Below are positions 12,700 through 34,277 of a stretch of DNA of 40,236 nt, piece by piece (positions within the stretch are counted from its first letter, which is position 1; each line of letters begins with the position of its first letter). The notes below the pieces were generated by a model that was not told the DNA's origin, made no database searches, and worked only from the letters and a program-made list of their open reading frames with translations. Both the position numbers and the translations under genes were made by a program. Source of the DNA: Vulcanimicrobiota bacterium (GTDB lineage Bacteria > Vulcanimicrobiota > Vulcanimicrobiia > Vulcanimicrobiales > Vulcanimicrobiaceae); contig JAAXMC010000053.1 in assembly GCA_013036315.1 (NCBI GenBank), positions 1 to 40,236 on the forward strand, given 5' to 3'.

Positions 12700-12708
12700 A
12701 AGAGCGCT

Positions 12709-13383
12709 ATGACGGCAACACGCAAGGTCTTGGTGACCGGCGGCGCGCGCGGGATCGGGAAAGCCATCGCCGATCGCTTTCGAAAAAGCGGGTACACCGT
12801 GCTTACGCCCTCGCGTTCCGAAGTGGATTTGAGCGATCTCTCCGCGGTGCAGGTGTTCGCTTCCGGCGAAGCCGCATCGGGCATAGACATTCTCGTGAAT
12901 AACGCCGGCGAGAACAAGCCCCTGCGCCTCGAAGAGATCGAGCCCGCCGACCTCCAGCGCATCCTCACGGTCAATGTCGCGGCTGCGTTTTTGTTGGCGC
13001 GCTATCTGGGCGTGCGCATGGCCGAGCGCGGCTGGGGGCGCATCGTCAACATCAGTTCGGTGTATAGCATGGTCAGCCGCGAGCGCCGGTCGATGTATTC
13101 GACGTCGAAGTCCGCGCTCAACGGCCTGACGCGCGCGCTGGCCGTAGAACTCGGTCCGCGAAACGTGCTCGTGAACTCGGTCTGCCCCGGTTTTGTGGAT
13201 ACGGACCTCACGCGCCAAAACAACACGCCTGAGGAAATCGCGAACCTCTGTGCGCTCGTGCCGCTTCGGCGGCTGGCAACCGTGCAAGAAGTGGCCGATT
13301 TCGCCTATTTCCTCGGCTCTGAAGAAAACACGTACGTCACCGGCCAATCGCTGGCGATCGATGGAGGCTTCCTATCTCAGTAG
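12709..13383 (+). CDS. Short-chain dehydrogenase/reductase (FabG-like)
   Basis: A 224-residue classical SDR. Signatures: the nucleotide-binding TGGARGIG (10-17), NNAG (64-67), catalytic Ser116 or Ser117 in NISS, and Tyr130-x-x-x-Lys134 in YSTSK. The C-terminus (SLAIDGGFLSQ) matches the end of 3-oxoacyl-ACP-reductase-like SDRs. Such enzymes reduce a ketone or oxidise an alcohol with NAD(P)H. In this cassette a keto-sugar intermediate is the likely substrate, by inference. The start at 12709 is chosen because the alternative ATG (12682) is inside the terminator loop. The gene lies 17 bases before the cyclase-like gene, so these two probably form one unit behind the terminator, or depend on read-through. 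Confidence 0.87.
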   Translation: MTATRKVLVTGGARGIGKAIADRFRKSGYTVLTPSRSEVDLSDLSAVQVFASGEAASGIDILVNNAGENKPLRLEEIEPADLQRILTVNVAAAFLLARYLGVRMAERGWGRIVNISSVYSMVSRERRSMYSTSKSALNGLTRALAVELGPRNVLVNSVCPGFVDTDLTRQNNTPEEIANLCALVPLRRLATVQEVADFAYFLGSEENTYVTGQSLAIDGGFLSQ

Positions 13384-13400
13384 ACGCGGCGCGCTCCATC

Positions 13401-17227: not shown

Positions 17228-19489
17228 CTATGTATTTCCCTGTGAGATTGGTTGGAGCGGAATTCGCCTGCCTCCTGGAAGCTCGACGGGCAATCCGATG
17301 GGAGCTGTGCCGCGATCAGGCTCCATTAACCACCGCGAACCGGGAATCAAACGGCAGTAGGCCGCTTCGTAGTTTTCAGTCTTCGCATGTTTGACGGTGA
17401 TCAAGCGAGGTGACAGCTCCCTGCAGTCGGCCGGCTCCCGGTACGTGATATACCAGCCTTGCGGATTCGCGCTGTCGTCCAAATATCGTTCTATGTAGGC
17501 AATGCGTCTTGGAAACGGCAGCGTGAGCCACGCATTGTAATTGCCGAGTGGACTGAGTGGCAGCCACGCACTGCGCTGTTGTATAGTGCCTTGCGGGCCA
17601 CGTTCCAGCGGTAGCAGGACGCCGCTCGAGAGTTTGACCCACACGGGCGAGTTTGGATAGATCGCGGCGTCCGCCGGTTTGAATCCCGCCGCATCCTCTA
17701 GTCTGCGGAGTTCGCCGGAAATCGGCGGCAAGCCCGATGAAAAATTCGATGTATAATTGCCTAGAAAGGGAGAGCGAATATCCGCTATGCGGGACGGTCC
17801 CCCGAACGCAGACGCAATCAACAATACAAAAACCGGAATGAACGAAAGGCGAATGAGCAGCGCCGTAAGACCGCCCGTCAAGTTTTTTTCCGTCGCCCAA
17901 AAAACGATGGCTCCGACCAAAACGATTATTCCGCTCAGCATGTTGACGTGTTCGTTGAAAGCTTCACCGACGTAATACGAACTTGTCGCCCACATCGCAC
18001 ACCAACAAGCAGCGAGTAGAGGAACGAGCCGGTAGTGTTGCTGGCGCAGGCTGACGAGGGTCAGTGTCGCTACTGCTGCCAGTACGAGCAGGATCGTCCA
18101 GCCGCCGCCGATGCCGTCGACTGCCACGGCAAATTGAAGCGAGCTCGTATAGATGGCGCTGAACTCAAAATAGCCGAGCCAGTCGGGGCCGTGGCCGAAA
18201 TGCGCGCGATAGATGAGCTCGATGACCCCAATCGCAGCCGCGAGCAGAGCGGCCGAGATTCCAAAGCGAGAGAGCAGCAGCAACAGCGAGCGGGCAATGT
18301 CACGGCTTTCTAGCCAGTTCGCAGCCGATTCCGCGAGGAGATATCCAAACCAGATCACCGTCGTCCATACGCCGGTTTCGAACGACCACAGGACGCCAAA
18401 TATCCAGCCCGCGTACCCCAAGGAGAGAAACCATGTTTGCAGTCGCGCGGACGTCGCGTAGCGATAGCGGCAGAACGCCGCAAAAAGCACCATGAGCGGC
18501 CAGACGAATCGCAGCCCCTCTTGCGGGTAAAGCCGGGGACCAAGCGGATAATGGGCGCCCTGCGAGCTATAAAAGCAGGCCGCGCAAAGAAGAACCGAGA
18601 GAATGAAGTTCAACCATCCGCTTCGGCGGGAGCGCAGAACCAAGTATACGATGCAAGCCTGCGCCAGCAGAATAAGAGCCGTCAGTAAGTACAGCGAATC
18701 GTAGGTCGTTCGCCCGGGCATCGCGGCAATCGTCAAAATCGACAAAAACCCGTACTGAGACGGTATGTCCCAAAGCAGCCAGTGATGAGCTTGAACGAGC
18801 GACGCCGGCGCGACGAAATAGTTCTGATGGTAGGGAATCCATGCCGTGAGCTGATTATCCGTGCGGAACCCAAGGACGAAAAAGATGCCGAATGCGATCG
18901 CGAATTGCACGATAGGCAATGAAGGTTTCTCGTGGGTGGCCTGCTCTTCGCGACTGACGGCCAGATAGAGTGCGATCGCGAAGGACAAAAAGAAGGTGGG
19001 GATCGCTAGACCGCTCGAGCCGGTAGCATTTACCAAGAAATCGGCGACGTGCGTGTAGGTGAAACCCAATGTTAAGGCCCACGATGCAAGCGCTGCCACG
19101 AATATTCCCAGCATCCAACTCGCCGACCGCGTGTTCTTAGGCATTAGTTGATAGGCTATGATGGTCTCTGCGAGCGCCAGAATGATCGCGTATTTTCGAT
19201 GCGATGCCCACAAAAGCGCGGCTACCGTAACGAAATAGAGCGCGACAAACGCCCAGGCCAGCGCGTTCCGGGCGATTCCAAGGAAGGCGGCCCGATGATG
19301 CACTTGCAGTCCGTCGGCTAGCACGTAAAGCGGCAGTACAAAACCGATAGCTATCCAGGCCGGCGTTAGAGCGATTCCGGCTTGGCCCGCGGGATGCAAG
19401 AGGAGGGCCGGCAGCAAGGTCAATGCGCAGATCAATCCTCCGGTGATCGCCAAAGCGGACCCGCCGAAAAAACGCTCCATTGAAGTCAC
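17228..19489 (-). CDS. Giant polytopic membrane protein with WLLWD-PSQYGF motif, probable GT-C glycosyltransferase
   Basis: A 753-residue protein with about 14 hydrophobic segments (roughly residues 8-590) and a soluble C-terminal tail of about 150 residues rich in Pro, Arg and Tyr. It shares WLLWD(I/V)PSQYGFL (starting at Trp237) and the following layout with the 868-residue protein at 24269-26875; the two are paralogs. The motif sits in an extracytoplasmic loop after YHQNYFVAPASLVQAHH, as do catalytic loops of GT-C enzymes that use polyprenyl-phosphate sugars. That is inference from topology. The start is GTG at 19489, whose GTGA overlaps the upstream stop; ATG at 19480 is the alternative. 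A longer open frame upstream reads over the previous gene and is not real. Confidence 0.72.
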   Translation of the reverse strand: MTSMERFFGGSALAITGGLICALTLLPALLLHPAGQAGIALTPAWIAIGFVLPLYVLADGLQVHHRAAFLGIARNALAWAFVALYFVTVAALLWASHRKYAIILALAETIIAYQLMPKNTRSASWMLGIFVAALASWALTLGFTYTHVADFLVNATGSSGLAIPTFFLSFAIALYLAVSREEQATHEKPSLPIVQFAIAFGIFFVLGFRTDNQLTAWIPYHQNYFVAPASLVQAHHWLLWDIPSQYGFLSILTIAAMPGRTTYDSLYLLTALILLAQACIVYLVLRSRRSGWLNFILSVLLCAACFYSSQGAHYPLGPRLYPQEGLRFVWPLMVLFAAFCRYRYATSARLQTWFLSLGYAGWIFGVLWSFETGVWTTVIWFGYLLAESAANWLESRDIARSLLLLLSRFGISAALLAAAIGVIELIYRAHFGHGPDWLGYFEFSAIYTSSLQFAVAVDGIGGGWTILLVLAAVATLTLVSLRQQHYRLVPLLAACWCAMWATSSYYVGEAFNEHVNMLSGIIVLVGAIVFWATEKNLTGGLTALLIRLSFIPVFVLLIASAFGGPSRIADIRSPFLGNYTSNFSSGLPPISGELRRLEDAAGFKPADAAIYPNSPVWVKLSSGVLLPLERGPQGTIQQRSAWLPLSPLGNYNAWLTLPFPRRIAYIERYLDDSANPQGWYITYREPADCRELSPRLITVKHAKTENYEAAYCRLIPGSRWLMEPDRGTAPIGLPVELPGGRRIPLQPISQGNT

Positions 19490-21570
19490 GGTTGAGCCGC
19501 CTTCGTATCCGCGTATTCGATCCCTTGGATTTGAACGAACAGGTGAATATCGGTCACCGGTATTTTCTCGCTGCGAGGTACCATGGTGTCCACTGAAGCA
19601 GCCGGTGTGAGCGCGGTAATGTGAACGGTTGATTTGCCATGCGCGGGAATGCTCAGCGCCAATAGCGCGGCTGCGCCCGATTGGCTTATCGGAAAAGTGT
19701 TTTGCGAAGCTGCGGCTAGCGTCGGCCCCGCGGCCGGTGGCTCGGAGTATTTCAGCAACTTCGCGCCGCGGATTTTGATGGATCCCGGGAAAGCCGAATA
19801 CAGCAACAATCCCAGGTTGACGGTGATGTTTTTTCCGCAATTGTCGGACGTGAGGACAAGATCGGCCGACCGCCGCGCATAGCGCCAGAGGGGGTCTCGG
19901 ATATACTGCGTGTCCAGCACCTTCGCGCGAATCTGCGGAATCGCGACGGGGTTCGGAAATTGGTTCGGATAAAAACCGGTCGACCAAGTGTGTCCGGGTC
20001 CCTCGGGCCGGAAAACTCTCGACAGGGCCACCGGGCCGCACGTGCGAGTGACGTCGACGAGGATATGTGTGTCGTCAACCTCCCTGATGTGCGTCTTGAT
20101 TCCACGCGAACGCAAAATCAGGCTCAGGGTAAAAGCCGAGCGTTCGTCCTGGGTAAGGTACTCACGATACTCCTCGGTACGGTCGGTCTGCAAACCGCTT
20201 GCGGTTCTCCGCAAGTGAAAGAGCTCGATTTTGCGAGTTTGGAAAGGTTGAATATCTTCGCGCAAGAGCCATCCGCCGTCGCGTTTTGATGCGACAAACC
20301 GTTTTCCGCTCAACGCAAAAAACAGGCGTTGTTGCGCGCCAGGAGAGGGCGCAAAGATGAGCAGCTCCGATTTCGTTGAAAGCGCCACGGCGGTTCCGTC
20401 ATTGATGCCTTTAAAGAGATGACGCTGTGCGCCGCGCTGCACCGTAAGAAACGCTTCCCAAGGTTTTTGAAGGTTATGAACGATGAGCTTATTCGCGCGT
20501 ACGTTGCCGTAGAGGACGAGTAACATGGTGACGGCTACCAGCGCGGGAACGATGCGAATCGCCTCCGGCCGAAGGCGATTCAGCAGTTGGAGCGCGCCGA
20601 CGGCCGCCAGTGCGAATCCAAAGCATTCGAAATAGCTGCCGCCCGTTTGCCAGAACGCGGCGCATATCCAAAGCGCTATTCCAAGAACTGCACATTTGGC
20701 TGAATTTTCGCGGGCTCGTGAAGATGACAGGTACCAGTAGACGAACGCTGCGCAGAGCACAACGACTATCCAACCGATGGTATCGATGCTCGGAAGCCGG
20801 TCGAAACTGGTGTTCCGGTCGGTACCCGAGAGCACGTCGTGAATGATGTTTCCCGATGCGCGATAGGCGGCGGGGATCACGGCAACGAAATTTCTCGGCG
20901 CGTCGTGCCACGAGGCATAGGCAACGTGTTGAAGACGCACGATTGCGAGCCCGGCTGCAGTGAACGCGACCACGAGCGCCGAGTCCGATAAAGCTTGGTC
21001 GCGTGCTCTGGCGAACCAGGCGTAGGCGATAAAGACGGCTGCGAACGCGGCGCACGCCGGCAAGGCCGCGATTGCCAAACCGAGAAAGGCGCCCGACGCC
21101 AGCCGCCGCCATATGATCTGGGAGCCGCCCGGCGGCGCGACGAAGAAGAGGAGCGCCGTTAGCACGAGCTGCGCCGCGAACGGATAGACGAACAGGTTTG
21201 AGAGATATGGATCGCCTGCTGTGTGAAACTGGGTTGCGCCTAAGGCGATCACGACCGCGAACAGCGAAGCTGATTTGCTGCGTGTGAGCTGCGCGGCCAA
21301 AAAGAAGAAGGTGCACATGTTGGCGGCAATTCCAATAATCTGCAGGTAATGCGCGAAGCTCGGATTGAGCGTCACGTACCACAGTGCCATCGGAAGAGCG
21401 GCGAGCGGCCCGAACTGCCCGGCACGCACGCCTTCTCGAACGAGCAGCTCTAATTCCGCCCACTTGCTGATATGGTCGTAGGCTGCGTTCGAGCCAAGCA
21501 GGTAGCGCCAGAGGTCGATCGTGGCGAAACCAGGCGGCGCCATCACGATGAAATAGCCGATCGAAAGCAA
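19486..21570 (-). CDS. Large polytopic membrane protein with C-terminal extracytoplasmic domain
   Basis: A protein of at least 694 residues: about ten hydrophobic segments in the first 350 residues and a soluble, beta-rich C-terminal half of about 340 residues that ends in KAAQP. The plan is like GT-C glycosyltransferases with a periplasmic domain, but I cannot identify a family. The TTG at 21570 is the first standard start yet falls within the first hydrophobic segment. The frame continues upstream as a Lys/Arg/Ala-rich stretch to a CTG at 21660 that overlaps the preceding TGA as CTGA, the same type of overlap as at the next gene junction (GTGA), so the true start may be that CTG. It is followed without gap by the 753-residue membrane protein. 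Confidence 0.65.
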   Translation of the reverse strand: MLSIGYFIVMAPPGFATIDLWRYLLGSNAAYDHISKWAELELLVREGVRAGQFGPLAALPMALWYVTLNPSFAHYLQIIGIAANMCTFFFLAAQLTRSKSASLFAVVIALGATQFHTAGDPYLSNLFVYPFAAQLVLTALLFFVAPPGGSQIIWRRLASGAFLGLAIAALPACAAFAAVFIAYAWFARARDQALSDSALVVAFTAAGLAIVRLQHVAYASWHDAPRNFVAVIPAAYRASGNIIHDVLSGTDRNTSFDRLPSIDTIGWIVVVLCAAFVYWYLSSSRARENSAKCAVLGIALWICAAFWQTGGSYFECFGFALAAVGALQLLNRLRPEAIRIVPALVAVTMLLVLYGNVRANKLIVHNLQKPWEAFLTVQRGAQRHLFKGINDGTAVALSTKSELLIFAPSPGAQQRLFFALSGKRFVASKRDGGWLLREDIQPFQTRKIELFHLRRTASGLQTDRTEEYREYLTQDERSAFTLSLILRSRGIKTHIREVDDTHILVDVTRTCGPVALSRVFRPEGPGHTWSTGFYPNQFPNPVAIPQIRAKVLDTQYIRDPLWRYARRSADLVLTSDNCGKNITVNLGLLLYSAFPGSIKIRGAKLLKYSEPPAAGPTLAAASQNTFPISQSGAAALLALSIPAHGKSTVHITALTPAASVDTMVPRSEKIPVTDIHLFVQIQGIEYADTKAAQP

Positions 21571-21656: not shown

Positions 21657-22277
21657 TCAGCGCCGCTGCCTGAGAGATTTGATCTCTGCCCGTAGCAGCG
21701 TCACCTCTCGCTCAAGCGTAGCGACCTTGGCGCCGAGCTCTTGCGTCGCAGCCATGTTGATCGATAGCGAATTGTTGAGATTAAACGACGTATGCTCGGG
21801 CCCCGTGAACTGAGCGGGCGCGTCCTCTGCAATGAATCCTATATGTGGGGAAACGGACTCGCCTTCATTCCTATAGCGGTAAGAAACGATGCGGACGCGG
21901 CTCAACAGGTCGAGCGCGTCGTCCCGGTACACCTGGATGTCTTTCTTTTCCGCGCGGCTCGAACGAGACGCGACGATGCCGCGAATGCCAAGGTTCCCAT
22001 TGATATCGAGCGTCAGCTCGTTTGCATACAGCGCCTGCCGGTTGAACACCGACACGGTAAGAACGCGGCCGTCAATTCCAGCTTGAATCGCGTCCGGGTT
22101 CGAGAGGAGCACGGTCGTAAAAGCCTTGTCGAGTGAGTTCGGATAAGAGATGATGGCATTGCCGGGCAAATCGGCGGCGGCGACCGTTCTTACACCTCCC
22201 GAAGCGCATCCGGCAAGCAATACAAACGCGCCGCAAAAAGCGACGCGGCCAATCCAATATTTTAGCCGGTCTTCCAA
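21657..22277 (-). CDS. Lipoprotein with C-terminal S74-type intramolecular chaperone domain
   Basis: A 206-residue protein. The N-terminus is a lipoprotein signal with lipobox LLAGC (Cys24). After a short beta-rich middle (about 30-103), residues about 104-203 match the peptidase S74 / tail-spike chaperone domain: Ser106 and Lys111 in SSRAEK, the position of the self-cleavage Ser-Lys pair; DALDLLSRVRIVSYRYRNE; HIGFIAEDAP; and a final coiled coil (about 175-203, MAATQELGAKVATLEREV). In phage tail spikes this domain helps a trimeric beta-fibre fold and then cuts itself off. Here it is on a lipoprotein within a glycan operon, between a methyltransferase and two membrane proteins, with almost no fibre in front of it. 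Whether it cleaves and what it folds are unknown. Confidence 0.8.
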   Translation of the reverse strand: MEDRLKYWIGRVAFCGAFVLLAGCASGGVRTVAAADLPGNAIISYPNSLDKAFTTVLLSNPDAIQAGIDGRVLTVSVFNRQALYANELTLDINGNLGIRGIVASRSSRAEKKDIQVYRDDALDLLSRVRIVSYRYRNEGESVSPHIGFIAEDAPAQFTGPEHTSFNLNNSLSINMAATQELGAKVATLEREVTLLRAEIKSLRQRR

Positions 22278-23384: not shown

Positions 23385-24230
23385 TTGAAAAAGCAGACCC
23401 TGTTTGGCATCCTGTTGTGTATTAGCGTTGTTGCATTAGTACTGCTGTTTGTAGAAACGAACGCGCTCGAATACAAAACGCTAAAGTCGGTTACGGAAAC
23501 GAGAATTAATTTTGACAGCCATGCCGGCGGCGGAAATTCTGCGTCCCAGCCCAGGGCATTCAACGAATCGAGGAAGGCCCCGCTAAAAAGAATCTCGATA
23601 CAGATGAGTTTTTTCGTGTATTCCATCGGGGAGCACAACAATATTTTTCAGACGGCCCCCGTGAACGGCGGTTTGCGGCTTGAACTCACCAAGCCCGGTA
23701 CGCTGGCGGTGATCGCCGGCGCGCGTAACACGCGGAAATTTCTGCCGTACGTATTGACCACGAACCTTGCGCTGAAAGAATGGCACACGCTCGCAATTGA
23801 TATCGACCCCGAGAATCACGTCGTCATTTTGCTGGACGGCGACAGAATGGACGCTACGGACCCCGCTCTAGCCTATGATATCTCAAACATTATCTTTGGC
23901 GCGGGCTTCAGCGCAACGCGTCCTTTTGATGGCCAAATCAAAGACGCTTCGATTTCTTATCAATATGTTGAACACCGCTATAGCGGAGGAACCATCACGG
24001 CGTTGCGCGCGGTATTTCTTGTGGCTGCTCTCATTTGCTTGGTCCTTTTTAGCGGCTTAGATAGGCGCGCTGTCGCCATCTATAAAGAGATCCTCGCTGA
24101 TGAGGATGACGGGGTCGTCGGCGATCTCCCCGAAGCGAATGGCGCCGGCGAAAAGGCAGCGGGCGTGGTTCCGCCACGCACTGAGAGAGATGCCTCTCGG
24201 CGAGGCTTTGGTAATGACGAAGCCTGGTGA
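23385..24230 (+). CDS. LamG-like (concanavalin-A-fold) domain protein with two membrane anchors
   Basis: A 281-residue protein with a hydrophobic N-terminal segment (about 6-23), an extracytoplasmic LamG/concanavalin-like beta domain (about 65-200) and a second helix (about 205-223). The LamG assignment rests on the pattern NNIFQTAPVNGGLRLEL, a Trp-His before a beta strand (KEWHTLAIDID), a DG turn and the end GQIKDASISYQ. Such domains bind sugars or proteins. It is clearly paralogous to the 243-residue gene at 30121-30852 and shows the same fold as the N-terminal domain of the next gene. The start is TTG with CGGAG upstream. The C-terminal tail after the second helix is about 35 residues longer than in the paralog, and its last codons run through a set of hairpins (24163-24224) that looks like an intergenic repeat captured into the frame. 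Confidence 0.75.
   Translation: MKKQTLFGILLCISVVALVLLFVETNALEYKTLKSVTETRINFDSHAGGGNSASQPRAFNESRKAPLKRISIQMSFFVYSIGEHNNIFQTAPVNGGLRLELTKPGTLAVIAGARNTRKFLPYVLTTNLALKEWHTLAIDIDPENHVVILLDGDRMDATDPALAYDISNIIFGAGFSATRPFDGQIKDASISYQYVEHRYSGGTITALRAVFLVAALICLVLFSGLDRRAVAIYKEILADEDDGVVGDLPEANGAGEKAAGVVPPRTERDASRRGFGNDEAW
24163..24224. repeat. Cluster of short palindromes at the 3' end of the LamG gene
   Basis: Three hairpins follow one another: GCGTGG/CCACGC (24163-24168 with 24174-24179), GCCTC/GAGGC (24192-24196 with 24202-24206), and GGCTT/AAGCC (24204-24208 with 24220-24224). The stretch GGCGAGGCTTTGGTAATGAC resembles, with several differences, the reverse complement of the REP-like segment at 4101-4122. 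It encodes the last 20 or so residues of the LamG protein. Confidence 0.4.
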
Positions 24231-24268
24231 CAAAGCGCAGTAGGCGAATCTCCTAGGAGATCCGGAAG

Positions 24269-26875
24269 ATGACAAATTCGCTCAGCGTTCGCCTGCTGCT
24301 CGTGCGCATGTGCCTGCTCGTGGTCCTTGCGGGCGCGGTGATCGCGCTGGACGGGCTTTCCTCACGCAACGACTATTCAGTCACGGGCATTACGTACGAT
24401 TCGGCGACGGGCGCGCCGTTTGAGATTCAGACGCCCGTGGACCTTCCCCGTTATTTCGATCTGCGTTTCAATGCGCTTGTGAACGATGCCAATTACGGCA
24501 GTCTCTTGCAGGCTTCAGGGCAATCGGGGTCTACTCTGCGGCTCGAGGTCGATCCGCCGCGACGCCTAGTTTTGACACTTTTCGGAATCGATGAGTCGCC
24601 CATTACACTTTCCGACACTTTTTCGTTGCGCAGATGGCACCATATTGCCATCAGCGGCATGCGCGATGGTCGCTTCGACGTTGCAATCGACGGCGCCGTA
24701 ACCGCATTCGAGATCTCGTCGATTCACCAGCTACAATCGTCGGCCGAAATCGGCTCCAAGGATCTTGGCTTCCACTTTGGGAGGCTGGAGATCGGTGCGG
24801 ACTTCCTACATACCCGACTGTTGAACGGAAAAATCGCAAACCTATCTCTTCGCAGCATGTACGTAAGAGCGTTGCCCCTGCCGCTCGCCGTAACTGCGGA
24901 CGCGCTCGTTGCGGCTGCGGCGCTGTGGCTCCTGTGGCCATGGTTGCGTCGACTTCGCAGGCCGGAAGTATCCAGCGCCGAGCTGTTTGTTCTTGTCGTT
25001 CTAGTTGCCAGTGTCGGCGTGGGGTTTGCCGTAAACGGTCTCGGCGTGCCGGGAGGCCAGTGGGCGATATTGCTGGCGATGGGAGCTGGAACGATCTTAG
25101 GCGCTGCACTCGTGGGGCGCTTTCGGCTACCGCAGCTACCTGAAAATGCAGCCGCCCTAGCGGCGCCCTGCCTCGCGATTCTTGTTGCGGCATCGTTGCT
25201 CACGCTTCCGAATTATGGCGCGACGGTCAGGATGTTCGAGCGCTGGCCGCTTGCCTCAATGTTTGCCGTGATGCTTGCAGTGTGCGTGGCTGCCATCGTT
25301 TTGGACGCATCGTCTCGCCACTCGACTCCTTCGCGAATGTGGCGCTGGTTTGCGTGGCTTCCGTACGTGCTCTTCGCACTGCTAGCGCTTCGAACCGACT
25401 CGGTTTTCGCCCCGATTAACGCGCTGCACTGGGAGTACGTCGTGGGCCCGATCCGCGCGCTCCACCAGGGCGGCTGGCTGCTCTGGGACGTGCCATCGCA
25501 ATACGGGTTTCTCGATATCCTGATCCCGGCGTTTTTGCCCATTCGCCCGGCGGTAGACGCCTTTTATTGGTTCCAAGCCGTGGCTCTTTTCGCGGCCGCT
25601 GCAACCTTCTATCGAACCCTTTATACGGTCCTCGGTGTTAACGTGCTCGCCGCGGGCGCTTTAGTAGCCGCGTTCCTCTTCTTGGCTGATCCCTTGCTCA
25701 TCGGACCGACGCCGTATCCATCGATGAGCGCTGTGCGCTTCCTATGGTGTTACATTCTTCTCGCAATTGCGGTAACGAATATCCTAGGGGCGCGGCCCTC
25801 GATGTCGAGATACATTCGCTCCGGTACCATTCCCTGGATCGCCGGGCTGCTCTGGTCGGCTGAGAGCGCTATCTACGTGACGGTAATTTTTTTCACGCCG
25901 TTATTCGTCAGGCTCTTTCTGCGCCGGCAAGAGGCGACTTCGCCTCGAGAAGCGCTGAGCGCCGCCGTCAAACTTCTAAAGCTCCCCATTCTCTGCGCGC
26001 TGGCCGCGTTTGGCATAGTGGAAGCGTGCTACTTTGTCGCGCTGGGACACGGCCCGGACTGGTCAATGTTTATAGCGTACAGCCGTTCGTACGGTGGAGG
26101 ATATGGTGCGCGCCCTATTCCGTTATATGGTCCCATTTGGACAATAGCGGCGATCCTATTCGGCGGCGCTGCAACGTTCCTCGCGCTGCGGCGTAAGGGC
26201 GCGGAAGGCCGCGGGTATGCGACCGCGGCGGCGATGGCATTAGTCTGGATCATTTCGTCGTACTACGTCGGGCGAGCGTATCCGATCGCTGTGACGATGC
26301 TCTCTCCGCTGTACGTGTTCGCTGTTTTTGCAATCGTTCGATCGGGCTCGGTCCTTGACAGAATTTCTATCCAAGCCGCGATGGCCTTACCGCTCGTGGC
26401 TCTTGGGCTCGTTTCGGCTTTTTGGAATGCCGAGAGTCCGGCCGTGGCGAAGAATTTATTGACCCCAAATGTCCATGCCTGGACGCGGCTCCCAGAGGCT
26501 AGTCTTGAACTTGAATCGCTGCTTCGGAATGCCCACGTTACCCTGTTGACGCCGGTCGTCTACTACGATACCTGGATTGCGATGCCACGTGCTGCAGATG
26601 GACCTTATGAGCAGAATTGGCTGCCAACGCCACTTGAGGATCTCGATGAGCCAATACCAACGGCCATGCGCGATGAAATCGTGGCGCGTTTCGTGATGCG
26701 CCATCATTTATCGGGTTATCTCGTGCAGGCGACAAACGGAAGCAACGTACCCGAAACCGCCCAGTCGTGGATATCTCTTCTCTCGCGGTTTTACACTGTC
26801 AGGGAGGTCGCACATAGTCAAGACTATCGCCTTTTGCAATTCTCGTTGCGCGCGGCTTCCGGCGGCGCTCAATGA
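24269..26875 (+). CDS. LamG-like domain fused to a giant GT-C-like membrane protein (WLLWD-PSQYGF family)
   Basis: An 868-residue protein with two parts. Residues 1-25 are a membrane anchor and about 30-205 are a LamG-like domain (LRLEVD, RRWHHIAISG, NGKIANLSLR), which corresponds to the separate protein encoded just upstream. Then come about 14 hydrophobic segments with WLLWDVPSQYGFLDIL from Trp403, shared with the 753-residue protein at 17228-19489, and a soluble C-terminal tail. The fusion shows that the LamG domain and the membrane core work together. GT-C glycosyltransferase activity with a polyprenyl-linked donor is the best guess, from topology only. The ATG is preceded by GGAAG. The stop overlaps the next gene as ATGA. 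Confidence 0.75.
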   Translation: MTNSLSVRLLLVRMCLLVVLAGAVIALDGLSSRNDYSVTGITYDSATGAPFEIQTPVDLPRYFDLRFNALVNDANYGSLLQASGQSGSTLRLEVDPPRRLVLTLFGIDESPITLSDTFSLRRWHHIAISGMRDGRFDVAIDGAVTAFEISSIHQLQSSAEIGSKDLGFHFGRLEIGADFLHTRLLNGKIANLSLRSMYVRALPLPLAVTADALVAAAALWLLWPWLRRLRRPEVSSAELFVLVVLVASVGVGFAVNGLGVPGGQWAILLAMGAGTILGAALVGRFRLPQLPENAAALAAPCLAILVAASLLTLPNYGATVRMFERWPLASMFAVMLAVCVAAIVLDASSRHSTPSRMWRWFAWLPYVLFALLALRTDSVFAPINALHWEYVVGPIRALHQGGWLLWDVPSQYGFLDILIPAFLPIRPAVDAFYWFQAVALFAAAATFYRTLYTVLGVNVLAAGALVAAFLFLADPLLIGPTPYPSMSAVRFLWCYILLAIAVTNILGARPSMSRYIRSGTIPWIAGLLWSAESAIYVTVIFFTPLFVRLFLRRQEATSPREALSAAVKLLKLPILCALAAFGIVEACYFVALGHGPDWSMFIAYSRSYGGGYGARPIPLYGPIWTIAAILFGGAATFLALRRKGAEGRGYATAAAMALVWIISSYYVGRAYPIAVTMLSPLYVFAVFAIVRSGSVLDRISIQAAMALPLVALGLVSAFWNAESPAVAKNLLTPNVHAWTRLPEASLELESLLRNAHVTLLTPVVYYDTWIAMPRAADGPYEQNWLPTPLEDLDEPIPTAMRDEIVARFVMRHHLSGYLVQATNGSNVPETAQSWISLLSRFYTVREVAHSQDYRLLQFSLRAASGGAQ

Positions 26876-28800
26876 GCGGACCGTCTTTGGCATGGCGAGC
26901 GTTCGGCGCACGTGCCTTGCCGTATCTGGCCTGCGCCCTCCCGATCGCACTCTATCAGGCCCTTTACGTGAACGGGTTCTACGCTGTCACCGAAGGGTGG
27001 TTCTCCGAGTACGCCCGCCTCATTCGAACCGGGGCCGTTCCATACCGTGATTTTTCGCTGATACTTACCCCGCTCTATCCGATGCAATTGGCTGTTTTCC
27101 AAACTTTTTTTGGTGAAGGTCTCTTTGCTCTGCACATCCTAGGCATCTTCGTCACCTGCGCGATCGCGTTAGCGCTTCTCGATCTTCTGCGTAATTTTTT
27201 CAACCCTTGGACGAGTGCGTTTGCGGCCGCCGTCGGCGTGGTCTACTACGAATCCGGAGTTGCCTTCTTCGGCTACGATTTCACGCAATTTGTCACGCTG
27301 TACCTACTTCTCGCGACGGTACTATTGGTTCGCTCGCTAAGGCCCGTTCCGGCAACCGGCAGCGAGTCCAAAGCGCTCTGGCTGTGCGCGTGCGCGGGCC
27401 TGTTCCTAGCGCTCGCATTGCTCATAAAACAGTCGAACGGTGCGATCGCCGGCCTGATAGTTGGTCTGTCGAGCATCGTTGTGGCGGCAGCGATGTACCG
27501 GCCGCGTGCCGTGCTGTTGCGCACTGCCGCGTTGGCCGGCGGATTTTTCTTGCCGATCGCCGCTGTGTTGCTTTACCTGACTGTTACGGGAGCGTTTGCG
27601 CCATTTTTGGCAGATGTGTTCGTTGGCGCTGCCAGGGCCAAGGGTGGACTCAATGTATTCGCTTGGACCGGGCATTACTATCTCGATCCTCCCGGCATTG
27701 TGTTCCATGCGCTAACAGCCCTTATGAGGCTCGCAGAGCTTCTCGTCGCTATGCTGTTGGTTGCGGTAGCGGTAGAAGGAGCAGCGGCTCTTTCACAGCG
27801 GCGGCGGTTAAATCGTGCGCAGTTGCGTGCGGCCTTGCGCCGACTCGTCGGATTCTCTCACGCACCAGCGTCCGGTCAGGCGCTGTTCATATCAAGCATC
27901 GCGTTGGCCGTGCTCTGCGTTCTTATCTTCGCAGTCGCTCACGGCGATTATTCCATGGATTGCAACGCGCTGAATTGCATCGGCGGGATGGTCGTGGAGT
28001 CGGCATACGTGTGGTCAGTTAATTTCTATCTGATCGGATTTGCGGTAGCCTTGGTTCTCTTGTTGCGGTCCAGGCGTCAGGGCGCGGCCCGGTTCTGCGT
28101 TGTGGCGGCGCTTGGCATTGGGCTTACGTTCGGCAACGGGGCGTCGGCCGGTCTCTCCGAGATTAGCATGTTCCTCGGCATCGCAATACTTTTCGCGTTT
28201 CTGATCGACATGTGGGTCACGTACTTATTCCCGGCCTTCCTGCCGGTCGCCGTAGCTCTCTCGTTCTGCGTTTTCTTCGTTGAAGCAAAATTCAAAGCGC
28301 CATATGCCTGGTGGCAGGTCGCATCATCCCCAGTGCGCACCACCGAATGCGCAGATGCCGGCGGCGCTCTCCGCGGCCTGTGCATGCCGCCTGACGATTA
28401 CGCCTCAATTGTCGGGATCGAGAACGCCATCCTTAAGAACAGCTCCGCCGGCGAGGAGATCTACGTTTATCCGCACATGCCGATCTTCTATCTCCTGACA
28501 AGCCGCCGTCCATTTGACAACGCGGTTGTCAGTTGGTTCGATTTCACTAGCGATCAACTTGCGGACGACGTGAGCCGGCGTTTGCGCACCAGCCCGCCGT
28601 CGGTGATCATCATGGCCGAAATACCCAATAGTGTTCTGACCGCTCACGAGCATCTTTTTCGCAACGACAAGCCGCTGCCCCAGCGAAGGATCCTCGCGTC
28701 GATTGCCGCTCTGAAATCGAGCGGGCTGATACGGCGCATCGATCATGTGGAAAATCTAAACGGTCTGACGATCGACGTGTATAAGCGGGTCACCCAATGA
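26872..28800 (+). CDS. GT-C-type membrane glycosyltransferase-like protein
   Basis: A 642-residue protein with about 13 hydrophobic segments and a soluble C-terminal 150 residues. The first extracytoplasmic loop reads YAVTEGWFSEYARLIRTGAVPYRDF; an acidic residue followed by a segment of the form GxxPYRDF is common in GT-C enzymes of the ArnT/PMT type (GT39/GT83 style), which move a sugar from a polyprenyl-phosphate carrier. It starts within the stop of the LamG fusion gene (ATGA) and ends six bases before the convergent GT87 gene, so it is the last member of the 23385-28800 operon. Acceptor and donor are unknown. Confidence 0.72.
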   Translation: MSGPSLAWRAFGARALPYLACALPIALYQALYVNGFYAVTEGWFSEYARLIRTGAVPYRDFSLILTPLYPMQLAVFQTFFGEGLFALHILGIFVTCAIALALLDLLRNFFNPWTSAFAAAVGVVYYESGVAFFGYDFTQFVTLYLLLATVLLVRSLRPVPATGSESKALWLCACAGLFLALALLIKQSNGAIAGLIVGLSSIVVAAAMYRPRAVLLRTAALAGGFFLPIAAVLLYLTVTGAFAPFLADVFVGAARAKGGLNVFAWTGHYYLDPPGIVFHALTALMRLAELLVAMLLVAVAVEGAAALSQRRRLNRAQLRAALRRLVGFSHAPASGQALFISSIALAVLCVLIFAVAHGDYSMDCNALNCIGGMVVESAYVWSVNFYLIGFAVALVLLLRSRRQGAARFCVVAALGIGLTFGNGASAGLSEISMFLGIAILFAFLIDMWVTYLFPAFLPVAVALSFCVFFVEAKFKAPYAWWQVASSPVRTTECADAGGALRGLCMPPDDYASIVGIENAILKNSSAGEEIYVYPHMPIFYLLTSRRPFDNAVVSWFDFTSDQLADDVSRRLRTSPPSVIIMAEIPNSVLTAHEHLFRNDKPLPQRRILASIAALKSSGLIRRIDHVENLNGLTIDVYKRVTQ

Positions 28801-28806
28801 GCGGTC

Positions 28807-30090
28807 TCAACCCGTCACGTGGGATCCCGCAAGCTTGCGCGACGCATCCCGTTCACGCATGTCGCCCGATGCGCCGGCTTTGGTCCGCGCAAATCCCGAC
28901 CAGATAATCGTTGCCAGCATTGCGATCATAACGAGTGGATTGATCACGGTGTTCATCGATCCGTAAACATCGCCCCACAAGTCGCTATAGAGCGCTGCTT
29001 TGGGGATCAACAGCAACGAGAACATAATAATGAAGGTCAGGTCGAGGCGCCATTCACCGGGCTCCGCCCGGTGGTTGATGAACAGGTACAAAGGAATCAG
29101 AAAATACATTAACTTGTAATCCGTCGAGGTGAAGGGCAAAAGGCACATTGCGATTGTAAGGACTGCGACCCGCCTCCAAAGAATTTTTTCTACAAAGGTT
29201 ACATACGCCGCGGCGGCAAGAAAGCAAGCCGCAGCGAAGACCATGTACGGCCACAAGATCTTCGAAGTACCCGGATAGTATGGCCCAGCAACAGCTTGCC
29301 ACGCGTTCAAGAGGCTATGTCCAAAATGCATTCCGGAAACCGAAAATATCATCAAAGCCGAATACATCCCGAGACTCTCGTGGAGGCGGTGTAGGTACCC
29401 GGGGAGCTGGCCCGGGCCAAAAAAGCCGCCGTCAAAGATTAAGAGCGGCAGAAACGACAACGCGATTGCAAGCGCGATGCAGGCCGCAAGGTCGCGCCAA
29501 CGCCGGTCCCTGACGTATAAGACTAGGAAGACGGCCGGAAAGAGTTTCATCGAAGCCGCGGCCGCAAGGCAAAACGCAGCGGGCGCCCAATCGCCACGCC
29601 TATATAAGAATATAAAAAGGCAAACGAAAACGAATACGATGCCCTCGAGGTTGAGGGTCGTGATCTCGAAAAGGAGCGGATAACTCATCAAGACAATGAT
29701 TGCCGCGTCACGAATCGACGTCACGACGTTGTCCGTTTTAACGTTAAAGAACGTGTAGATCAGCGTAAACGACGTGACGAACGCGGCAAACACCAACGCG
29801 GATACTATCGTGGGCGAAAAGATTGCAAAGGGCGCCAAAAAGAGAAACGTACCCGGAAAATACGCCATCCCGTACCCCACGTTGTTGAATTGACCGTGAC
29901 GCCAAGCTTCTGCGGATCCAAAATAGTCACCGAAAAGGCCGTTGACCAAGAACGTGTTGTGCGGATAGGCTGCGTGAGCCCAGAAGGTCCAGTAGTAGTA
30001 GAGACAGCAGTTCGCCAGGAACGCAACGACGATGACAGTCGTGACCAACCCAATCTTGCCTTCGCGCGAGACTACTAAATTTCTAAGCAT
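28807..30090 (-). CDS. GT87-family (DUF2029, PimE-like) polyprenyl-phosphate glycosyltransferase
   Basis: A 427-residue membrane protein with about ten helices. The first loop after helix 1 (NGLFGDYFGSAEAWRHG) carries the early Asp expected in this GT-C family, and the order of short helices with RRGDWAPAAFCLAAAASMKLFPAVFLVLYVRDRRWRDL in the middle is highly typical of GT87 (the K-x-x-P motif with flanking Arg). Known members are mycobacterial mannosyltransferases such as PimE that use polyprenyl-phosphate mannose on the outer face of the membrane. Here the GT2 protein at 33188-34183 could make the donor. It is the last gene of the minus-strand operon, 30 bases after the LamG gene. Confidence 0.82.
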   Translation of the reverse strand: MLRNLVVSREGKIGLVTTVIVVAFLANCCLYYYWTFWAHAAYPHNTFLVNGLFGDYFGSAEAWRHGQFNNVGYGMAYFPGTFLFLAPFAIFSPTIVSALVFAAFVTSFTLIYTFFNVKTDNVVTSIRDAAIIVLMSYPLLFEITTLNLEGIVFVFVCLFIFLYRRGDWAPAAFCLAAAASMKLFPAVFLVLYVRDRRWRDLAACIALAIALSFLPLLIFDGGFFGPGQLPGYLHRLHESLGMYSALMIFSVSGMHFGHSLLNAWQAVAGPYYPGTSKILWPYMVFAAACFLAAAAYVTFVEKILWRRVAVLTIAMCLLPFTSTDYKLMYFLIPLYLFINHRAEPGEWRLDLTFIIMFSLLLIPKAALYSDLWGDVYGSMNTVINPLVMIAMLATIIWSGFARTKAGASGDMRERDASRKLAGSHVTG

Positions 30091-30120
30091 ACTGGAGATC
30101 TCCGGCTCCGGATTCAGGGA

Positions 30121-30852
30121 TTATTCCGGGTTTGGGTCATCCGTAACCGATGCATTGTCAGCATCTGAAATCTCTCTACGTTTGCCTAAACCGCTCAGAA
30201 GAAATAAGAAAACGAGAGCGCCGATAATAAATATCGCACGCAAGGCTGTAACTGTCCCAGCGCTTGAATTCTGCCTTATCAGTTGATAAGAAATCGAAGC
30301 ATCCTTTATTTGGCCGTAAAACGGGCGCGTTGTATCGAAGCCTGCTCCAATCTCAACATCCGAAATGTCATACGCTAAATCCGGAGCCATTTCACTGGCG
30401 TTCAGCTGGCCGTCGAAGTATATGGTGATGTGATTCTGCGGATCGATCTTGATGCTCAATTTGTGCCAGCGATTGAGCCGAAAATTACTTGTAAGAAGAT
30501 AAGGCCTGTACCCGCTGTCATTTTTGGCGTGCGCGATAAGCACCAGATTGCTCGGCTTTGAAAGTTCGAGTCGCAGTCCTTTGTTCAGGGGCGCCGTTTG
30601 GAAGAAGTTGTCGTACTTATGTATTGAAGATGCCTCAACGCTCATCGTCAGATCGATGCTTTTTAAATCGCTGGATGCATCTTCCGCATGCAGATAGATG
30701 CGCTTTGCGCCAACCGCGCCGTTGTAGTTGATGTTGCCAATCTGGAACGACTTGAAAGCCCTGTATTGAATGGCGTTTGCAAAAAGAAATGTGGCTAGTA
30801 AAGCAACAAGGCATCCGGCGAGTAAGACGGCGTAGAGTGTGCTTCTCTTCAT
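30121..30852 (-). CDS. LamG-like domain protein with two membrane anchors (paralog)
   Basis: A 243-residue protein built like the one at 23385-24230: N-terminal hydrophobic segment, extracytoplasmic LamG-like domain and a second helix near the C-terminus. The two share FFQTAPLNKGLRLELSKP, AYDIS, and GAGFDTTRPFYGQIKDASIS with few changes, so they come from one duplication. The C-terminal tail is short (about 20 acidic residues), unlike the extended tail of its relative. It lies 12 bases after the 717-residue membrane protein and before the GT87 gene, again next to GT-C-type proteins. Sugar binding is inferred from the fold only. Base composition is lower in G+C than most of the window. Confidence 0.75.
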   Translation of the reverse strand: MKRSTLYAVLLAGCLVALLATFLFANAIQYRAFKSFQIGNINYNGAVGAKRIYLHAEDASSDLKSIDLTMSVEASSIHKYDNFFQTAPLNKGLRLELSKPSNLVLIAHAKNDSGYRPYLLTSNFRLNRWHKLSIKIDPQNHITIYFDGQLNASEMAPDLAYDISDVEIGAGFDTTRPFYGQIKDASISYQLIRQNSSAGTVTALRAIFIIGALVFLFLLSGLGKRREISDADNASVTDDPNPE

Positions 30853-30864
30853 TTTACTTCAACC

Positions 30865-33018
30865 TTATTGGGCGGAAAGGTACTTGAGCCCGAAAGTATA
30901 GTCGCATTGCGATCCCGGTAGATCGGGCCAGTCTCCATTGTCATTGATGTTCAAAGTACTAAGCGTGTAGCGCTTGGCCTCCTTTGTACATATGTCCTTC
31001 AGTTTTTCTCCCGTGCTCAGGAGAACGTAGGAATCGTTCATGTAAGCAATTTGCTTACTGAATCGATGAATAAAACAGGTTCGGCAAAGCAGGTCGTCGC
31101 TTCTAAAGATTACGCCAACCGGCGCCTCAAGGTAAGGCGCGATGTATTTTTCTGCGTCATTTTCGTTAACCAGGTTCATCGATATTATGGGAACTAACAT
31201 CAGGTCGGCTATTGACGGCTGCCGGCGAGGCACGAGAAGAGCCAAGTCATTGAATTGACGGGCGCCGTTCGTGTATTTGTACATGGAAAACATATCGGCG
31301 TTGACGTAGCCGCTTTGAGCCAGGTATTGGCTTATGTAGACCACGCCGGTTACCGCCACGGTAATAAGCGCCGCGGCCCCCGCGTACGTGGCTACGGATT
31401 GACCTCTGGTCGCAACATAGCGGCCAAATCGCTTCCCAAGACCGCCGCGTTGTCTTAGAGAGTCGCCCAAGTTTGTAAAGAAGCGCTTGTCCTGAGTTAG
31501 CCGGTACAATGCGCTGAAGACCACGCAGACGAGCAATGGCGTGAGCATGATATAGATCTTCATGTACGGATAATTTAGGATATGATCCATAAGATTCATC
31601 TTGAGATATGCTGCGAGTATGATCGCCGGGGGCGCGATCCAGAAGCTGCTGTCAAGGTCTCGAGTTCTTAGCATAAAGCGAACAAAAACTGCAGCCAAAA
31701 GAATCGAGAGGACGATGCTGATCACTTCATTTGGCAGCGAGCGCTGGAGTAATACATACCAAGGCGGATGGTACATATTAAGAAACCCGAGAATCTCAGC
31801 GAAGGACCCCCAATGGGGTTGCCAAAACCCTGCGACGGATAAACGCCGCAGGTTCGCGATCGTGTAGAAGAGCCATTGGTTGCTAAAGGGCAACACGGCA
31901 ATAAAACCGCCGAGAAATCCCAGGCCGGCGTAGACGAGCGACGTCCTGTCGATCCGCCGGTAAAAAACGAGATCGAGTAGACTTACGACGACGACGAAAG
32001 CGACGAGAAGCACCAACGCTTCATTGTATGCGCTGTACATGAACGCAACTAGAAGTATGAAGAGGAGAAGCGACTTTATGAACGCTGAGGAAATCCGCAG
32101 GCCTTTCCCGCTGGTGGCACTTCGCGCGCGTAAATATAGTATCAGCGTTAGCGTGAAGTAGGGCAACGTAAAAATCTGGGTCAGTTGACCTTCGTAATAC
32201 ACATTTATTAGATTGCAATTGAGCGCCAGAACGCTCATAACGGCGAAAGAAGGGCCGCTCGGCAGCCTGAAATAATCGCGGAGAATTCGGAAAGCAAGGA
32301 CGAGCATGAGAGCGTAGCTGAAAACATCAAGCAAGAACTCAACCTTGTAGACGTGTGTACTCCCCGTCAGGAATGTGAGAGCTGCTAGTGTCCCCGGGAA
32401 TCCCCAACGGTAGGCCTTTAGCAGAAATTCACTGTCCACATAGGTTTGAAAATTAAGCGCCCTCAAGTTCTGCGCTTTCGCCTTGCTCATGTCCGCGGTG
32501 TTCAGTTGGGCGAGCAGAGTGACGCGTATTTTATTGAGCGTGCCTCCCTCAAGCAGATATTGCGCAGTTTCAGCATATCCGACCTGATCGATTCCGTATC
32601 GGTAAGGAGTGGTCGGCATGCCCGCGCGAACCGCCGGAGCCATCACGACGGCTAGGAGTACTGCGAAAAGCCCGGCCTTGGCTGACAAAGAAATCCAGGT
32701 CTTCGTCGGGGTCCTTAATATCCGGCGGATCTGCGCAGTAAAGGCGAATTGGCGCAGGGATTCGTCCAGCAACACGGCCGCGATTAGTGTGGCGAGTCCG
32801 ACCACTGCCGAGACGTAGAGCGAATCGACAACCGGAACCGACAGGTAGATCAGGTATGCGCTAACGATAGTCAACTGCAGTAAGCCTAATCCCGGAATGA
32901 AAACCAGCCCGAACGAGGCCTGTTTAAGAAAACCGGGCGTCAGCAGGCGATATAGACCAAAGCCCGTTAGAAACGAGAATAGATAGATAACGATAAGATC
33001 TGCGAGGATGTCGAACAC
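30865..33018 (-). CDS. Large polytopic membrane protein, probable GT-C-type glycosyltransferase
   Basis: A 717-residue protein with about 14 hydrophobic segments and a soluble C-terminal domain of about 150 residues with paired Cys (CRTC, and Cys near the end). A long loop after residue 125 reads PYRYGIDQVGYAETAQYLLEG, a position and style (acidic residue, then Tyr-Ala) seen in GT-C first loops. I do not recognise a named family, and it lacks the WLLWD motif. The start is GTG at 33018 without an obvious ribosome site. The gene is visibly A+T-richer than the rest of the window (one 60-base line, 31021-31080, has 22 G+C, against 37 for 13261-13320), which may mean recent acquisition. Confidence 0.68.
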   Translation of the reverse strand: MFDILADLIVIYLFSFLTGFGLYRLLTPGFLKQASFGLVFIPGLGLLQLTIVSAYLIYLSVPVVDSLYVSAVVGLATLIAAVLLDESLRQFAFTAQIRRILRTPTKTWISLSAKAGLFAVLLAVVMAPAVRAGMPTTPYRYGIDQVGYAETAQYLLEGGTLNKIRVTLLAQLNTADMSKAKAQNLRALNFQTYVDSEFLLKAYRWGFPGTLAALTFLTGSTHVYKVEFLLDVFSYALMLVLAFRILRDYFRLPSGPSFAVMSVLALNCNLINVYYEGQLTQIFTLPYFTLTLILYLRARSATSGKGLRISSAFIKSLLLFILLVAFMYSAYNEALVLLVAFVVVVSLLDLVFYRRIDRTSLVYAGLGFLGGFIAVLPFSNQWLFYTIANLRRLSVAGFWQPHWGSFAEILGFLNMYHPPWYVLLQRSLPNEVISIVLSILLAAVFVRFMLRTRDLDSSFWIAPPAIILAAYLKMNLMDHILNYPYMKIYIMLTPLLVCVVFSALYRLTQDKRFFTNLGDSLRQRGGLGKRFGRYVATRGQSVATYAGAAALITVAVTGVVYISQYLAQSGYVNADMFSMYKYTNGARQFNDLALLVPRRQPSIADLMLVPIISMNLVNENDAEKYIAPYLEAPVGVIFRSDDLLCRTCFIHRFSKQIAYMNDSYVLLSTGEKLKDICTKEAKRYTLSTLNINDNGDWPDLPGSQCDYTFGLKYLSAQ

Positions 33019-33052
33019 GGTCAGGTCTTTACGCCACGCACGTCATTGAAAG

Positions 33053-33086
33053 AAAAAAAAACCCATACGATCGTGAGGCCATGGTT
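33053..33086 (-). terminator. Possible weak terminator downstream of the GT2 gene
   Basis: On the minus strand, AACCAT pairs with ATGGGTT (one bulged G) around a long loop and runs straight into nine T (complement of A at 33053-33061). It lies about 100 bases after the GT2 stop and about 35 before the next gene. The stem is weak, so termination would be partial at best. Confidence 0.35.
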
Positions 33087-33187
33087 ATTTCAGCCACTGC
33101 CAAAAATTTCCGCAGCCTAATAGTGCGGTCCTTCATCCTAACACCGCGTTTACGAAGCGTTAAGGAGGCTATATATCGTCGACAGCG

Positions 33188-34183
33188 CTAGCCGATCCGG
33201 CGCTCGATGCCAACTTCCCGGCTTATTTCTTCGGGCTCGGCAGCATGCCGATCGAGCCCGTAGGTTTCTTGTGCGATGAAGATCGGCCGGTTACGGACTT
33301 CTTCGAAGATCAATCCGATATACTCGCTGTTTATGCCGAGCATCAGGAAGAGCAAACCGAAAAGGAGTAGCATGAGCGCGAGGATCGTGCCGAATCCGTT
33401 GAAGGGCACGCCGCCGACGTACCACCGGATCGCGAACGCAATAAGAAGCACGAACGAAAAGAGCGAAAGCGTTATTCCGAAAAATGGGATGACCTTGAGC
33501 GGCGTTGTCGAGCTGCTCATCAAGCCGCGTACGGCGAACGCGATGTTCCTCGAAAGGCCGTAGGTCGAACGTCCGCCGTGGCGAGGAGGCCGATCGAAAG
33601 GCACGCCGATGGACTTCCCTCCGATCCAAGTCCACATCGTGCGAAGAAGCCGGCTTTTCTCGTTTAGTTGGTTCAGCGTCAGGTAGAGAGAACGGTCGAC
33701 GAGCCGAAAGTCACTTGCATTTTCTGGGACGGGCTGCTCGTTGATGCGGTTCGCCAGCCAGTAGAACGCTTTTGTGAAAACTCTGCGAAGAACGTTTTCG
33801 TCGCTGCGGTGGCGTATTGACCCGAAGACGTTTTGGTAGCCTTGCTCCCAGCATTCGATCATGACGGGAATCAATTCGGGAGGATCCTGCAGATCCGCGC
33901 ACATGATGATGGCCGCGTCGCCATGGATGGAGCGTAGGCCCGCCGTCACGGCCGCCTCGATTCCAAAGTTGCGAATGAGGCGAACAATCTTAAAACGGCG
34001 ATCGGTGTTATGAATGCGGAGGAGCTTCGCAAACGTAGAATCGACCGATCCGTTTTCCACGATAACGAACTCGAAGTTGTAGCGGTGTTGCAAGCCGCGG
34101 GTGACGTCCGCCAATCGGCGAGCGAGCTCGTCCACGCATTCCTCTTCGTTAAAAGCGGGAACGACGACAGAAATCGTTTTCAA
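33188..34183 (-). CDS. GT2 polyprenyl-phosphate glycosyltransferase (GtrB/ArnC/DPMS-like)
   Basis: A 331-residue GT-A enzyme. The N-terminal VVVPAFNEEECVDEL (6-20), the acidic metal site CADLQDPPELIP and the downstream RHGGRSTYGLSRN segment match the dolichol-/undecaprenyl-phosphate glycosyltransferase group, followed by two C-terminal helices (about 230-250 and 262-285) as in GtrB and ArnC. It loads a sugar from a nucleotide donor onto polyprenyl phosphate on the cytoplasmic side, to be used after flipping by GT-C enzymes. The neighbouring GT-C and GT87 genes are the natural users. It is first on the minus-strand unit and diverges from the SGNH genes across 94 bases. Confidence 0.88.
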   Translation of the reverse strand: MKTISVVVPAFNEEECVDELARRLADVTRGLQHRYNFEFVIVENGSVDSTFAKLLRIHNTDRRFKIVRLIRNFGIEAAVTAGLRSIHGDAAIIMCADLQDPPELIPVMIECWEQGYQNVFGSIRHRSDENVLRRVFTKAFYWLANRINEQPVPENASDFRLVDRSLYLTLNQLNEKSRLLRTMWTWIGGKSIGVPFDRPPRHGGRSTYGLSRNIAFAVRGLMSSSTTPLKVIPFFGITLSLFSFVLLIAFAIRWYVGGVPFNGFGTILALMLLLFGLLFLMLGINSEYIGLIFEEVRNRPIFIAQETYGLDRHAAEPEEISREVGIERRIG

Positions 34184-34277
34184 CGCCCCCTTTTACGACA
34201 ATCACGCGAAAATCACCCGCAATGATGACCGCAGCATGAATGGGAGGCGTGCGTCAGGAATCGAAGGTGCCGTGGTT

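Follow-up and report, generated by a model that had tools for sequence, protein, structure and literature searches.

Organization of the locus

The window, i.e. the complete stretch of 40,236 nucleotides that was analyzed, is contig C53 of a genome assembly of 1.67 Mb with a completeness of 57%, which derives from an uncultured bacterium. A sequence-only reading of this DNA had placed two stand-alone LamG-like proteins, here called LamG1 and LamG2, and an 868-aa protein with a fused LamG-like domain side by side with large membrane proteins. The open reading frames were present at the positions stated. The features considered here are as follows (basis of the assignment in brackets):

17228..19480, minus strand: LamG-free homolog of the GT-C type core, likely ATG start at 19480 (29% identity to the core of the fusion)
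19486..21570, minus strand: polytopic membrane protein, frame of 694 aa, partner of 17228 (homologs beside the core in the genomes G042, G016 and G030)
21657..22277, minus strand: lipoprotein with a Peptidase_S74 (endosialidase chaperone) domain (Pfam, E 1.1e-9)
23385..24230, plus strand: LamG1, stand-alone TM-LamG-TM protein of 281 aa, TTG start with GGAG upstream (Laminin_G_3, identity to LamG2, hydrophobic segments)
24269..26875, plus strand: 868-aa fusion of TM1, LamG-like domain (residues ~30-200), TM2 and a GT-C type core (homology, Foldseek)
26872..28800, plus strand: 642-aa polytopic protein, probably of GT-C type, with an E-G motif in the first loop (topology, motif)
28807..30090, minus strand: 427-aa GT87 (PimE-type GT-C) glycosyltransferase (Pfam GT87)
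30121..30852, minus strand: LamG2, stand-alone TM-LamG-TM protein of 243 aa (Pfam, AlphaFold model, Foldseek)
30865..33018, minus strand: 717-aa polytopic protein, possibly of GT-C type, orphan in the phylum (topology, acidic residue in a first-loop-like motif)
33188..34183, minus strand: GT2 carrying two TM helices at its C-terminus, similar to the polyprenyl-phosphate sugar synthases PgfS/ArnC/GtrB (Pfam, NCBIfam)

Operon 1 on the plus strand comprises LamG1, followed after a gap of 38 bp by the 868-aa fusion, which overlaps the gene of the 642-aa protein by 4 bp. Operon 2 on the minus strand runs from the GT2 (34183-33188) via the 717-aa protein (33018-30865) and LamG2 (30852-30121) to the GT87 (30090-28807), with gaps of 12 bp before and 30 bp after LamG2. 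Within the operons all gaps thus lie between -4 and 38 bp, except for the 169 bp separating the genes of the GT2 and the 717-aa protein. The two operons converge at 28800/28807, as had been proposed, and they are embedded in a polysaccharide cluster that also contains genes for an initiating sugar-phosphate transferase and a flippase of the MurJ/MATE type (5143-6399), as well as CDP-glucose genes (a glucose-1-phosphate cytidylyltransferase and a CDP-glucose 4,6-dehydratase-like protein). A dedicated flippase adjoining the GT2 and GT-C genes was not found in the gene cluster of the window.

LamG1, LamG2 and the fused LamG domain

In a BLASTP comparison LamG1 and LamG2 were 46% identical over 252 aa (E 4e-74), which identifies the two as paralogs. 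The N-terminal part of the 868-aa protein is homologous to LamG2 (30% identity over 114 aa, E 8e-11). Both the paralogy and the fusion claimed from the sequence are therefore borne out. Laminin_G_3 (PF13385) matched LamG2 with 31.0 bits, above the cut-off of 27.6 bits, and LamG1 with 23.3 bits (E 7.8e-5), below this cut-off; the 868-aa fusion gave no Pfam match at E <= 1. The identity of LamG1 and LamG2 at codon positions 1, 2 and 3 amounted to 0.58, 0.71 and 0.39, a pattern that indicates a selected coding sequence in which constraint is kept. A profile built from the three LamG sequences detected no further copy in the available 1.67 Mb of the genome (57% complete), which confines the three known copies to a stretch of 7.5 kb.

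Hydrophobic segments flank the domain of LamG1 at ~5 and ~204, and LamG2 likewise carries one before and one after its domain. In the 868-aa protein the LamG region is bounded by such segments at 9 and 204, with the core following. AlphaFold, run with four sequences, modelled LamG2 as a helix at 3-27, a beta-sandwich and a helix at 198-226 (mean pLDDT of 71.6). Foldseek returned 379 matches with E <= 0.001 for this model, the first of them a sialic-acid-binding CBM40 module; CBM40 sialidase modules and neurexin LNS domains were matched with a probability of 1.00 and E values of about 1e-7 to 1e-6. According to the model, the fold of LamG2 is the concanavalin-type beta-sandwich that had been predicted, located between two TM helices. 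Binding domains of clostridial toxins among the Foldseek matches were rejected as kin of LamG2, since these matches reflect the shared beta-sandwich only. With EmbC and GT136 ORF12 as tested precedents, sugar binding and the presentation of an acceptor by the LamG domain can reasonably be inferred.

Two other roles of the LamG domains have to be weighed at this point. The stand-alone LamG proteins could be chain-length or assembly factors like the Wzz-type co-polymerases, touching the growing polymer and not the GT-C enzymes. The topology of a periplasmic domain between two TM helices would fit such factors, as would the presence of flippases and an initiating transferase in the surrounding polysaccharide cluster. 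The fold of Wzz is alpha/beta, whereas the LamG fold is a beta-sandwich; furthermore, one LamG copy is fused to a GT-C core, the LamG2 gene has GT-C type genes immediately on both sides and that of LamG1 immediately precedes the fusion, all of which makes this role improbable. The domains could also bind protein, comparable to neurexin LNS, and merely stabilize the membrane enzymes or link them with one another or with the S74 lipoprotein. LNS domains are indeed among the nearest folds, and the gene of the S74 lipoprotein is a neighbor conserved beside LamG in another genome of the family (G042). Nonetheless, the first Foldseek match is a sialic-acid-binding module, the context is glycan synthesis and the known CBMs fused to GT-C enzymes bind acceptor glycans, and we consider binding of protein to be an unlikely explanation. 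Binding of an acceptor glycan is the role preferred here.

The GT-C type core of the fusion and its relatives

The core was modelled apart from the LamG domain, because a combined alignment misaligned the LamG rows; in the model of the 868-aa protein, whose alignment held no LamG rows, the LamG part is accordingly not resolved. The eight best Foldseek matches of the core model in the PDB were all GT-C enzymes (DPY19, AftA, OST (OST-B), ArnT and PglB), with probabilities of 0.57-1.00 and a modest agreement (best E 8.8e-4, TM about 0.2-0.4). These matches support the GT-C fold that had been suspected for the fused core, and glycosyl transfer would be the predicted chemistry. A sequence search of the PDB gave no match of the core to Emb or any solved GT-C.

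The core shows 29% identity over 508 aa (E 5e-28) to the LamG-free protein at 17228-19480, for which the frame of 937 aa is over-extended. In a collection of 84,980 species, the core search yielded relatives at 17 loci in other genomes, spread over Gemmatimonadaceae, Nitrospinales, Chloroflexota, Armatimonadota and others. The family has no Pfam entry and is marked by WLLWDxPSQYGFL. The 'WLLWDVPSQYGFL' core thus represents a GT-C-like family distributed over several phyla, which could be named and tested. Among 16 core proteins the polar residues Y412, R490, S530, E532, D597 and Y665 are fully conserved, which resembles the pattern of an active site. The acidic position of the first GT-C loop apparently corresponds to H387, with His in 13 and Asn in 3 of the 16 proteins; since the usual acid of this loop appears to be replaced, the catalytic residue of the core is unsettled.

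In a tree of the cores, the 17228 protein and its counterparts from G042, G016 and G030 formed a native clade (100/100), with the core of the fusion outside. The fusion was consequently assembled on a different core, which was possibly imported.

Neighboring membrane proteins, GT2 and lipoprotein

The 642-aa and the 717-aa protein each comprise 11 hydrophobic segments and gave no Pfam match. Distant homologs of the 642-aa protein with an invariant E41-G42 occur in G028 and G142, and an hhalign profile comparison with the core of the fusion was not significant. For the 717-aa protein no homolog besides itself was found in 148 genomes of the phylum. From topology and motif, the 642-aa protein is probably and the 717-aa protein possibly of GT-C type. 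In contrast, the 427-aa protein was assigned to GT87 by Pfam with an E value of 1.5e-13 (51.5 bits, cut-off of 25). The description of the neighbors as GT-C-like thus stands for the 868-aa core by structure match and for the 427-aa protein by Pfam, and is a prediction for the remaining two.

The GT2 at 33188-34183 matched Glycos_transf_2 in Pfam and PgfS in NCBIfam (E 1.2e-63, below the cut-off of that equivalog). In G030 and G042, neighbors of the core are 61-62% identical to it, and in L017 (Gemmatimonadaceae) and L019 a GT2 gene lies immediately next to a core homolog. A GT2 of the polyprenyl-phosphate-sugar synthase type, present both in the cluster and beside core relatives in Gemmatimonadaceae, agrees with the polyprenyl dependence that had been suggested, and its type and position support a polyprenyl-phosphate donor as the predicted substrate of the core.

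Homologs of the 19486-21570 protein immediately precede the core in G042 and G016 and are located near it in G030. Together with the 17228 homologs they form a conserved polytopic pair in four genomes of the family (this window and the loci L012, L014 and L016), for which no Pfam family exists. At L016:6845-7935 (G030), beside the core, short frames were observed that match the C-terminus of the 642-aa protein with 36%, perhaps a decayed or frameshifted relative. The short lipoprotein at 21657-22277 contains a Cys lipobox and an S74 domain without any fiber domain.

Recurrence in other genomes

A profile search of 149 genomes of the phylum revealed a TM-LamG-TM protein in two of them, the present one and G042, a genome of the same family, and in addition one ordinary LamG protein. 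The G042 protein is 28-29% identical to the LamG proteins described here. Its gene lies about 2.5 kb from a core homolog, with a GT2 nearby, and this corner of the cluster matches that of LamG1; a homolog of the S74 lipoprotein (45% identical) stands divergently beside it. Since the G042 copy occupies the same cluster position at this low identity, the TM-LamG-TM protein appears to have been kept over a long time. A LamG match in G016 was rejected as a recurrence, because it is an ordinary LamG protein on a different contig from the G016 core. Another relative of the same family with a homologous cluster, L028, is labelled Candidatus Eremiobacterota.

A LamG profile scan of the collection of 84,980 species confirmed no relatives. 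LamG was found in none of the 17 core relatives from this collection, nor was the fusion, from which it follows that LamG is dispensable for the core family. Among TM-x-TM proteins beside the core relatives, the sole extra candidate was a SCO1/SenC protein. LamG searches were extended to 346 genomes from the L017 phylum (Gemmatimonadaceae; without a positive control) and 291 from the L022 phylum (Capsulimonadaceae). They either returned no match or hit large LamG proteins of the ordinary kind, none with the membrane layout. Of the recurring LamG/GT-C neighborhood that had been anticipated, a stand-alone LamG near a GT-C in one other of the phylum genomes remains, while the fusion was not seen again; the neighborhood thus recurs weakly. 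A 'Rosetta stone' argument from G042 is weakened by the fact that its core falls into the native clade and that of the fusion into a different one.

These data also bear on the question whether the neighborhood is an accident, i.e. a local LamG duplication and a chance fusion in a fast-changing polysaccharide island that lack a working link to the GT-C enzymes. The restriction of the fusion to one genome and the scarcity of TM-LamG-TM proteins in the phylum would be in line with this, as would the lack of a relative of the 717-aa protein. The G+C content points in the same direction: it dips to about 0.50 across 30000-33000, with most of the window at 0.58-0.61, and is lowest in LamG2 (0.473) and the gene of the 717-aa protein (0.514), which possibly reflects a recent acquisition of both. 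On the other hand, LamG1 and LamG2 are under coding constraint, the operons are tightly spaced and a TM-LamG-TM protein occurs near the equivalent cluster of G042 at 28-29% identity. Altogether, a mere accident has little likelihood compared to a functional link.

Comparison with known systems

The assumption that no system of this form had been described does not hold, since mycobacterial EmbB comprises TM1, an N-terminal beta-sandwich carbohydrate-binding module, TM2 and a GT-C core (PMC7341804). The 868-aa protein shares this order with EmbB, in which the beta-sandwich lies outside the cell and the core uses a polyprenyl-phosphate sugar (PMC7341804). Moreover, Foldseek places the core near another arabinosyltransferase, AftA. 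Unlike EmbA, EmbB and EmbC (GT53), the 868-aa protein shows no sequence similarity to this family and no recognized C-terminal CBM. Arabino_trans_N (PF17689) had no match in the genome and no Emb or arabinosyltransferase profile matched the 868-aa protein. Based on these comparisons it is Emb-like in its predicted layout, but not a member of Emb. To our knowledge, Emb proteins have no stand-alone CBM partners.

The principle of fusing a CBM to a GT-C enzyme is already known from EmbB, EmbC, AftD and ORF12. AftD differs from the 868-aa protein in the arrangement of its CBMs and in its sequence family. Like the fusion it is a GT-C enzyme, and as cited in PMC11127046 its fused carbohydrate-binding modules make contact with the acceptor. 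Mutations of tryptophans in the C-terminal module of EmbC cut both acceptor binding and activity (PMC3044687), and the module of the GT136 enzyme ORF12 from Citrobacter youngae binds O-polysaccharide and is dispensable for catalysis (PMC11127046). Like the ORF12 and GtrABC-type three-component systems, the locus pairs a GT-C enzyme with a polyprenyl-phosphate sugar synthase (here the synthase-type GT2) among surface polysaccharide genes, and the GT-C carries a fused CBM, a putative one in the case of LamG (PMC11127046). The differences are that the CBM of ORF12 is C-terminal, that the synthase of its system makes a pentofuranose donor and that no dedicated flippase was identified here, the one of the MurJ/MATE type not adjoining the GT2 and GT-C genes. 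The LamG domains share the concanavalin-type beta-sandwich with Laminin_G_3, CBM40 and neurexin LNS (Pfam, Foldseek), but are framed by two TM helices and stand beside or inside GT-C enzymes.

Three features of this locus are new: a GT-C family that is unrelated, a module of the LamG type, and LamG proteins that stand alone and are anchored in the membrane. Among the papers searched, none described separate membrane-anchored lectin proteins beside GT-C enzymes, and none named exopolysaccharide glycosyltransferases together with LamG, or GT-C and polyprenyl together with concanavalin A-like domains. Judging by the fusion, the Emb-like layout of TM1, beta-sandwich, TM2 and GT-C seems to have arisen more than once, here in an unrelated GT-C family.

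Proposed function

The 868-aa protein is best read as an independently assembled Emb-like glycosyltransferase that would decorate a surface polysaccharide. With some reservation, we consider it probable that the whole module is a side-chain or chain-extension unit of the surface polysaccharide cluster, in which the fused LamG domain holds the acceptor and LamG1 and LamG2 act in trans. The GT2 would charge polyprenyl phosphate with a sugar at the inner membrane face, and a flippase, which we infer, would turn the lipid-linked sugar over. The GT-C enzymes (the 868-aa fusion, the GT87 and probably the 642-aa and 717-aa proteins) would then pass the sugar to the growing polysaccharide outside. The CBMs of EmbC and ORF12 bind their acceptors, and the fused LamG domain, held between TM1 and TM2, could likewise keep its acceptor close to the active site. 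LamG1 and LamG2 would represent the same module as separate membrane-anchored subunits, probably serving the neighboring LamG-free GT-C enzymes, with which they might form a complex; that they may be carbohydrate-binding subunits in trans is suggested by their position alone. A more far-reaching idea, which is tentative and rather doubtful, is that the TM-LamG-TM subunits in trans are a split form of the Emb/AftD/ORF12 architecture, with interchangeable acceptor-binding subunits setting the specificity of several GT-C enzymes. If the LamG proteins do act in trans, carbohydrate-binding subunits would be separate from the glycosyltransferases, a layout of which we found no record.

Further genes of the window

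Adjoining the CDP-glucose genes, a row on the plus strand at 9943-14471 encodes an acetolactate-synthase-like TPP enzyme, an HpcH/HpaI aldolase, an SDR and an AroB-related protein ('putative sugar phosphate phospholyase (cyclizing)'), which possibly points to an unusual branched or cyclitol-like sugar. The 872-aa protein at 341-2959 (minus strand) starts with N-terminal pentapeptide repeats, followed by a part that by eye resembles the LptD/OstA-type outer-membrane proteins. The genes at 34101-35903 and 35900-37582 (plus strand) are by eye tandem paralogs with a C-terminal GDSL-type hydrolase domain, which was matched by Pfam in the 35900-37582 member.
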